Source of the DNA: a virus
Reading direction: 5' to 3' (one strand)
DNA: 42,864 nt
Virus record (IMG/VR): IMGVR_UViG_3300021378_000051
Coordinates: 1 to 42,864 of that record
Each line of letters starts with the position of its first letter. Position 1 is the first letter of the stretch. The translations under genes and the position numbers were made by a program. This document shows, piece by piece, positions 28,307 through 28,378 of the stretch. The notes beneath the pieces are model-generated. The model ran no database searches and was not told the origin of the DNA. It saw only the letters and a program-made list of their open reading frames with translations.

Positions 28307-28378
28307 TTACTTGTTCATTACATACATTGTTACTTCGAAACCAAAACGCATTTCTGTATATGAAGGTTTTGTCCACAT
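28307..28378 (-). CDS. pqqA: PqqA-like PQQ precursor peptide (23 aa)
   Basis: This 23-codon gene begins [14 protein letters not shown] and continues with EVTMY. PqqA is the ribosomal peptide whose Glu and Tyr are cross-linked by the radical SAM enzyme PqqE (with PqqD) and then processed to pyrroloquinoline quinone. Here Glu15 and Tyr19 keep the exact E-x3-Y spacing and position of classical 23-24-residue PqqA peptides. The MW.KP start and the R.G.EVT.Y core also match the family. AGGAG lies 7 nt before the ATG. The gene stands alone between the capsid terminator and its own UUCG terminator; no pqqB-E genes are in the window, so host enzymes would have to mature it. Start, stop and codons were checked base by base. 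Identity rests on motif recognition. Confidence 0.88.
   Translation of the reverse strand: [23 protein letters not shown]

Follow-up and report, generated by a model that had tools for sequence, protein, structure and literature searches.

Why would a phage carry the gene for PqqA, the peptide precursor of PQQ, without the genes for the enzymes that turn this peptide into the cofactor? We investigated this question in the virus record IMGVR_UViG_3300021378_000051, of which a stretch of 42,864 nucleotides was analysed (hereafter the window). The original prediction had described a 23-codon gene at 28307-28378, an AGGAG ribosome site 7 nt before its ATG, and Glu15 and Tyr19 at the positions of the classical precursor; all three are found, with AGGAG read from the sequence at 28390-28386, and the gene lies on the minus strand, which had been left unstated (Table 1). 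The two residues are four positions apart, and according to the available text of PMC9012708 the Glu/Tyr pair of PqqA comprises the residues joined by PqqE. Comparison with profile HMMs, which had been proposed as a check of the PqqA identity, upholds it far above the curated cut-offs, with an E-value of 4.5e-12 for Pfam PF08042 (46 bits; cut-off 21.1) and of 1.5e-12 for the NCBIfam equivalog TIGR02107 (47 bits; cut-off 20), and the length of 23 aa falls within the short-peptide range of about 20-30 residues. On this sequence evidence the ORF is a genuine PqqA and not a chance frame. It is also viral and not host contamination, since it lies directly 3' of gp23, with portal and head protease genes nearby, and the same gene is found in phage isolates.

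Table 1. Features of the pqqA locus in the window (coordinates are window positions).
Feature	Position	Strand	Basis or remark
Major capsid protein, T4 gp23 type	28520..29695	minus	phrog_138, E 1.4e-102; directly upstream of pqqA
Capsid-gene terminator	28473..28496	minus	Terminator scan; separates the capsid gene from pqqA
TAAATA, resembling the core of T4-type late promoters	28416..28421	minus	About 40 nt upstream of pqqA; putative late-promoter role
Ribosome-binding site AGGAG	28386..28390	minus	7 nt before ATG, 9 nt before the overlapping GTG; read from sequence
pqqA, 23-aa PQQ precursor peptide	28307..28378	minus	ORF including stop; PF08042 and TIGR02107 matches
Overlapping second frame, 36 codons, ends ...YMHRLLETQDCE	28266..28376	minus	Putative GTG start 2 nt inside pqqA (ATGTG)
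Conserved tail RLLETQDCE and stop	28266..28295	minus	Directly after pqqA in 43/44 viral-contig stretches
Terminator-like hairpin CCCGC-UUCG-GCGGG and UUUU	28248..28265 (hairpin 28265-28252)	minus	Starts right after the tail stop
54-aa ORF behind the riboswitch	27993-28157	minus	ORF

Next, we searched for the gene in other phages. A tblastn search of phage records returned 12 records, which are nine isolates, an assembled podovirus and two entries labelled 'Acinetobacter phage'; the latter were left out, and ten phage records with pqqA were counted. One of the two Acinetobacter rows was examined and is a bacterial pqq operon contig. The record L125 (CAKLQF020000010.1), labelled Acinetobacter phage MD-2021a, carries bacterial pqqB, pqqC and pqqD together with a polyphosphate kinase gene, and looks mislabelled. 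All nine isolates (Venkman, P19250A, MEP301, MEP401, MEP402 and four Melnitz phages) infect Methylophilales/Methylophilaceae, which are methylotrophs. These OM43 phages encode the same peptide, 73-96% identical and unannotated, and differ in the neighbours of pqqA; no feature is named PqqA in the six true phage records examined, where the locus is featureless or overlapped by hypothetical proteins on the opposite strand. A pattern scan of IMG/VR returned at least 120 stretches, and all 120 listed carry a PqqA-like peptide.

Because this first pattern fixed Glu15 and Tyr19, a second scan was run with positions 14-23 free. Conservation of the two residues in related phages, on which the original prediction depended, was found in 120 of 120 complete copies among the matches listed (121 loci including the window, with L335 left out at a contig end). 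In these copies the cross-linking residues are conserved as amino acids, with Tyr19 written as TAT or TAC (62:58) and Glu15 as GAA or GAG (113:7). The column consensus of phage PqqA is letter for letter one of the PqqA forms found in bacterial genomes, which accounts for 21 of the 128 copies among the matches listed and is the second most frequent of 32 forms in this set, selected by an 11-residue PqqA pattern. Positions 2-5 of the phage peptide read WTTP instead of WTKP in six loci (L355, L356, L358, L368, L372, L384), and WTTP is also found in the commonest genome form (50/128 copies among the matches listed).

These observations bear on the decoy role that had been raised beside substrate supply, in which the phage peptide would bind host PqqD/PqqE and block PQQ synthesis. 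Such a role would fit a lone substrate peptide without enzymes too, although nothing points to it directly, whereas a decoy should alter Glu15 or Tyr19 in some lineages and its consensus need not be, as found here, identical to a host substrate. Because both cross-linking residues are kept in all 120 complete copies listed, the decoy is disfavoured and we consider it quite improbable.

We then asked which phage and which host are involved. The gp23 of the window shares 71% identity with the capsid protein of Vibrio phage 2.275.O (349 kb) and 66-69% with those of further phages of 284-470 kb (25 of the 2494 matching records being listed). Since its capsid relatives belong to phages of 284-470 kb, the window (42.9 kb) is probably part of the genome of a T4-related jumbo phage. 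The head-gene module of the window also encodes, at 33087-33812 on the minus strand, a protein weakly similar to alpha-2,3-sialyltransferases (phrog_4603, E 2e-5; PF06002 below cut-off). Judging by the type of peptide, the host is probably a methylotroph, most likely a Methylophilaceae bacterium. The 11-residue PqqA pattern matched at least 120 stretches in a bacterial and archaeal collection with one genome per species, and among the 80 titles examined most name Methylophilaceae genera, Methylophilaceae, Methylophilales or OM43, the remaining ones naming only Burkholderiales, Betaproteobacteria, Nitrosomonadales, Rhodocyclaceae or wider groups.

For the family of Methylophilaceae bacterium LSUCC0665, 150 genomes were taken from a larger group. 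All but one of them (149) matched pqqA, with a median of 4 matches per genome, at least two in 141 genomes and a maximum of 12, and pqqE exceeded its cut-off in 57 of 60 genomes, mostly as a single copy. The available text of PMC4109929 likewise gives 3 to 12 pqqA copies for Methylophilaceae, with the other pqq genes mostly single. With a median of four pqqA copies against a pqqE that is mostly found once, multiplication of the substrate gene is thus already a trait of the likely hosts.

Phage records were searched for the enzyme genes of this pathway. For pqqE, no match over the cut-off was found in ten of ten phage records (eight with pqqA, one of them 356 kb long), and the weak below-cut-off matches to its profile in two of these records are probably other radical-SAM proteins; pqqD had no match in ten of ten pqqA-bearing phage records. 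The original prediction had seen no pqqB-E genes in the window, and this stands for pqqE and for pqqB, the latter without a match in ten phage records, window included; pqqC likewise had no match in ten records including the window, a weak result in that its positive control matched nowhere. A partial pathway in these phages is possible, in view of the weak pqqE-profile matches and of the possible incompleteness of virus records. Added PQQ is an ingredient of one OM43 culture medium, in its available description, and host PQQ could therefore also come from outside.

PqqA is the only part of the PQQ pathway that is consumed mole for mole. It would therefore be the part that runs out once host expression stops, the enzymes persisting, and a phage would thus need to bring only pqqA. 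We consider it likely that the locus is a working pqqA of a T4-related, probably jumbo, methylotroph phage that supplies the substrate only, while host PqqB-E finish PQQ. Late in infection the phage would make PqqA in quantity, host PqqD and PqqE would cross-link Glu15 to Tyr19, and PqqB and PqqC would complete PQQ; the host enzymes would outlast host gene expression, with phage PqqA topping up their substrate, and the PQQ-dependent methanol dehydrogenases would be kept charged. The substrate-supply idea of the original prediction gains support from the HMM scores, the retention of Glu15 and Tyr19 in 120/120 copies among the matches listed, the methylotroph-like peptides and the absence of pqqE and pqqD over cut-off in phage records. 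PqqA identity, residue constraint, flanking signals, genome place and host copy number are all read from sequence, and the course of infection that they suggest is correspondingly conditional. Cyanophage psbA, by which a phage brings a fast-turning photosystem protein, may be analogous in that the phage would supply only that part of a host energy system which is consumed quickly; PqqA differs in being a peptide that is spent as the precursor of a cofactor, and not a replaced enzyme subunit.

Examination of the genome context placed pqqA a short distance 3' of a major capsid gene in at least 46 of the 186 phage loci, with two unrelated capsid types, the gp23 type and the phrog_371 type, having been tested. 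The 186 loci represent 155 distinct contexts pooled from several scans and are not a random sample; the window copy (L003) and L125 were left out of the placement, start-codon and open-frame counts. The check for pqqA next to gp23, as had been proposed, found the gene downstream of a gp23-type capsid gene in 28 of these loci, starting 134-328 nt downstream in 14 distinct contexts (some being the same contig), on the same strand as the capsid gene in 24 and on the opposite strand in four (one distinct context). In two gp23 cases the capsid is only 32-33% identical to that of the window. With the phrog_371 type, pqqA follows at 148-240 nt on the same strand in 18 loci (17 distinct contexts), and at a greater distance in three further loci. 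Examples of pqqA beside the capsid gene in the two unrelated families are L372, L045, L061 and the window, and the position behind the major capsid gene may serve small cargo genes more generally. Among the 80 closest gp23 loci, four carry pqqA nearby and 76 are without it in the available flanks (27 loci with up to 600 nt downstream and 53 with more than 600 nt), and pqqA is therefore optional cargo. The major capsid gene is typically strongly expressed and late. With an intervening terminator in the window and the opposite strand in four loci, expression of pqqA at capsid level is only a possibility.

The same context bears on whether pqqA could be a neutral passenger, a host gene captured by chance and unused. 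Its many copies in the likely hosts would make capture easy, and most close gp23 relatives are without it; nevertheless, the constraint on the peptide, its recurrence in unrelated phages, its repeated place beside the capsid gene and the terminator-like signals make a passenger extremely improbable.

We also examined the signals flanking the gene. On the minus strand of the window, 11 of 30 TAAATA sites are intergenic against 5.2% expected (p-value 1.7e-7), the highest intergenic count among 15 hexamers with identical base composition, a count that depends on our own selection of ORFs. TAAATA, which also stands upstream of other genes in the window, resembles the core of the T4 late promoter motif, and because of its intergenic excess on the minus strand it is probably the late-promoter core of the window's phage. 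The original prediction had pqqA lying alone between the capsid terminator and a UUCG terminator of its own. The capsid terminator is confirmed at 28496-28473; the UUCG element is present and folds as a hairpin, but is absent from the list of the terminator scan, its U run being only four, and it is thus terminator-like. Longer U runs follow the hairpin in several relatives of the locus, and a terminator-like hairpin was found within 150 nt after pqqA in 74 of 179 loci compared with 16 of 930 random stretches. The gene is not alone, since a second conserved frame, missing from the earlier picture, overlaps it (28376-28266), and beyond the hairpin lies a glutamine riboswitch (28231-28181). This riboswitch (RF01739, minus strand, 57.2 bits against a gathering threshold of 35) lies between the pqqA terminator and the 54-aa ORF, which matched nothing in NCBIfam or PHROGs, nothing in Pfam at 0.001, and phage sequences only at chance level. 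If we may guess, the riboswitch-controlled small phage protein could act on host nitrogen metabolism.

The second frame was recognised by its conserved end, with the consensus RLLETxDC(E/V). The tail of the window is in the -1 frame relative to pqqA, its stop abuts the hairpin, and an ATG at 28301 is an alternative start. Scanning viral contigs for LLETQDC-x-stop returned 22 stretches, each of which directly follows a pqqA-like gene, with WTTP in four of these genes; a looser scan returned 44 stretches, of which 43 follow pqqA (one cut by a contig end and still recognisable) and the other, L382, is a chance match. When tails were recognised by the protein motif, synonymous differences made up 71% in their own frame against 7% and 13% in the other frames for the window's cluster (12 sequences), 54% against 11% and 16% for all 23 sequences used, and 51% against 9% and 13% for the eight found via pqqA patterns, with L355, L375, L036 and L347 left out owing to mis-read ends or indels. 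Because recognition by protein motif favours the own frame and is partly circular, the test was repeated with tails recognised by DNA similarity alone (at least 19 of 30 bases, the next best having 18). Eight of 139 pqqA loci (seven distinct) had such tails, with 56% synonymous differences in the own frame against 8% and 15%, and all eight retain the motif, one as KLIETLDCE.

The tail frame contains an ATG or GTG inside pqqA in 27 of 27 distinct sequences, the commonest being the GTG two bases after the pqqA ATG. Among distinct genes, an alternative frame with an internal start is open to the end of pqqA in 23/23 tail-positive against 10/105 tail-negative ones (21/23 against 5/105 for the -1 frame alone), and the GTG start is present in 16/23 against 2/105 (Fisher's test, p-values 7e-18 and 4e-13 for any open frame and for the GTG start, both overstated as the sequences are related). 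The tail-positive loci come partly from tail-directed scans, which ignored the frame across pqqA. This comparison supersedes that of the F14 codon, which is TTC in 8/10 tail-positive and 31/106 tail-negative loci. We conclude that this tail is probably translated; a start within pqqA would be the simplest way. Two other routes are less likely. Fusion of PqqA to the tail by a frameshift is disfavoured in that most tails lie in the -1 frame but those of L355, L372 and L385 in the +1 frame, and no slippery site was seen by eye; the ATG of YMHR as tail start is not conserved, being ATA, GTG or none in relatives.

Alternatively, the locus could act as RNA, with a hairpin between the 3' half of pqqA and the tail region serving to stabilise or regulate the message. 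The RNA of pqqA and tail (28266-28378, minus strand) does fold into a long hairpin in the window's cluster. The z-score is -4.5 for 28231-28425 of the window with the terminator included and -3.1 without it (-0.2 to -4.6 across the window's cluster), L036 reaches -3.4 with a different pairing, and one pair is changed on both sides in two related sequences. However, double change affects just 1 of 26 pairs, the fold is absent in other tail-positive groups (L093, L369, L374, L386; z-scores -0.1 to 0.9), a wider alignment leaves five pairs at -1.6 kcal/mol, one with double changes, and the frame-specific synonymous change favours coding. With a hairpin found mainly in the window's cluster and almost no covariation, an RNA element was rejected as the main explanation of the tail, and the RNA reading as a whole is very improbable. 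Rfam matches below gathering near pqqA (PhrS, MicX, RsmY, PyrG_leader, trpB) were taken as chance.

The tail occurs in several phage contexts. In gp23 jumbo-type phages it stands beside the capsid gene, and in the contigs L023 and L387 its neighbours include gp32- and UvsX-like genes; other phages that have it differ in capsid and terminase, or carry a DNA polymerase and a DnaB-like helicase. The tail pattern was found in none of the 150 genomes of LSUCC0665's family, and a 22-residue query returned nothing at E 10 in phage records, a weak test with so short a motif. We tentatively suggest, as a possibility that falls somewhat short of probable, that pqqA is overprinted in one set of methylotroph phages, with one ribosome site and two overlapping starts (ATGTG) yielding PqqA and a phage-only micropeptide ending RLLETxDC(E/V), which would work with PqqA, for example in its handling by host PqqD/PqqE or its release, the cassette being present in at least two unrelated phage types.

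Taken further, the second frame itself could be the selected product with pqqA mainly its carrier, or both could be one device with a shared ribosome site and two peptides. The linkage of the tail to pqqA in 43/44 stretches, its change in the manner of a protein and the open alternative frame of the tail-positive genes, related though these are, agree with this; but in the pqqA-only sample 10 loci have the tail and 106 are without it (among the matches listed), so that pqqA is kept without the tail. We regard this alternative as unlikely: a main role for the second frame is unlikely, whereas an added role beside substrate supply by pqqA is quite possible.

When compared with known systems, the phage gene resembles host Methylophilaceae PqqA (TIGR02107, PF08042) in length, sequence and cross-linking residues, with several copies per genome being normal in these hosts; it differs in that the tail pattern was missing in all 150 family genomes searched and in that the phage gene sits among structural genes. 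The suspicion that similar cases might already be known was right, as a viral PqqA has been published for VP_266, a Lake Baikal methylotroph virus (PMC7678222). In the available text, VP_266 is likewise a methylotroph phage, and its pqqA is suggested to be an auxiliary gene serving PQQ and methanol oxidation. It is one viral population that also encodes methanol dehydrogenase, whereas ten pqqA-bearing phage records, a set separate from the window, had no match to PQQ alcohol dehydrogenase; furthermore, the window's phage is of T4/jumbo type with a second conserved frame overlapping pqqA, the comparison being with the published description of VP_266 and not with its DNA. PqqA is also listed among viral phosphorus-cycle genes from reservoir sediment viral contigs in the available text of PMC13188868, and the main texts of four OM43-phage papers (PMC9004378, PMC8024684, PMC10580990, PMC8163748) report no PQQ gene in phages. 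Our analysis adds to the published viral PqqA its breadth in isolates, its placement beside the capsid gene and above all the overlapping frame, for which we make no claim of priority.

Overall, a pqqA of 23 codons is easily overlooked, being unnamed in every phage record examined, and with the overlapping frame about 110 bases would hold two conserved micropeptides. For marine carbon, the oxidation of methanol by OM43 and its relatives is important, and PQQ is its cofactor. Cultured phage-host pairs exist (Venkman and Melnitz on H5P1), so that the idea of substrate supply is testable. If phages bring only the consumed precursor, this would suggest that the peptide, and not the enzymes, limits PQQ in infected cells, a limit with which the many copies of pqqA in these hosts would also agree.
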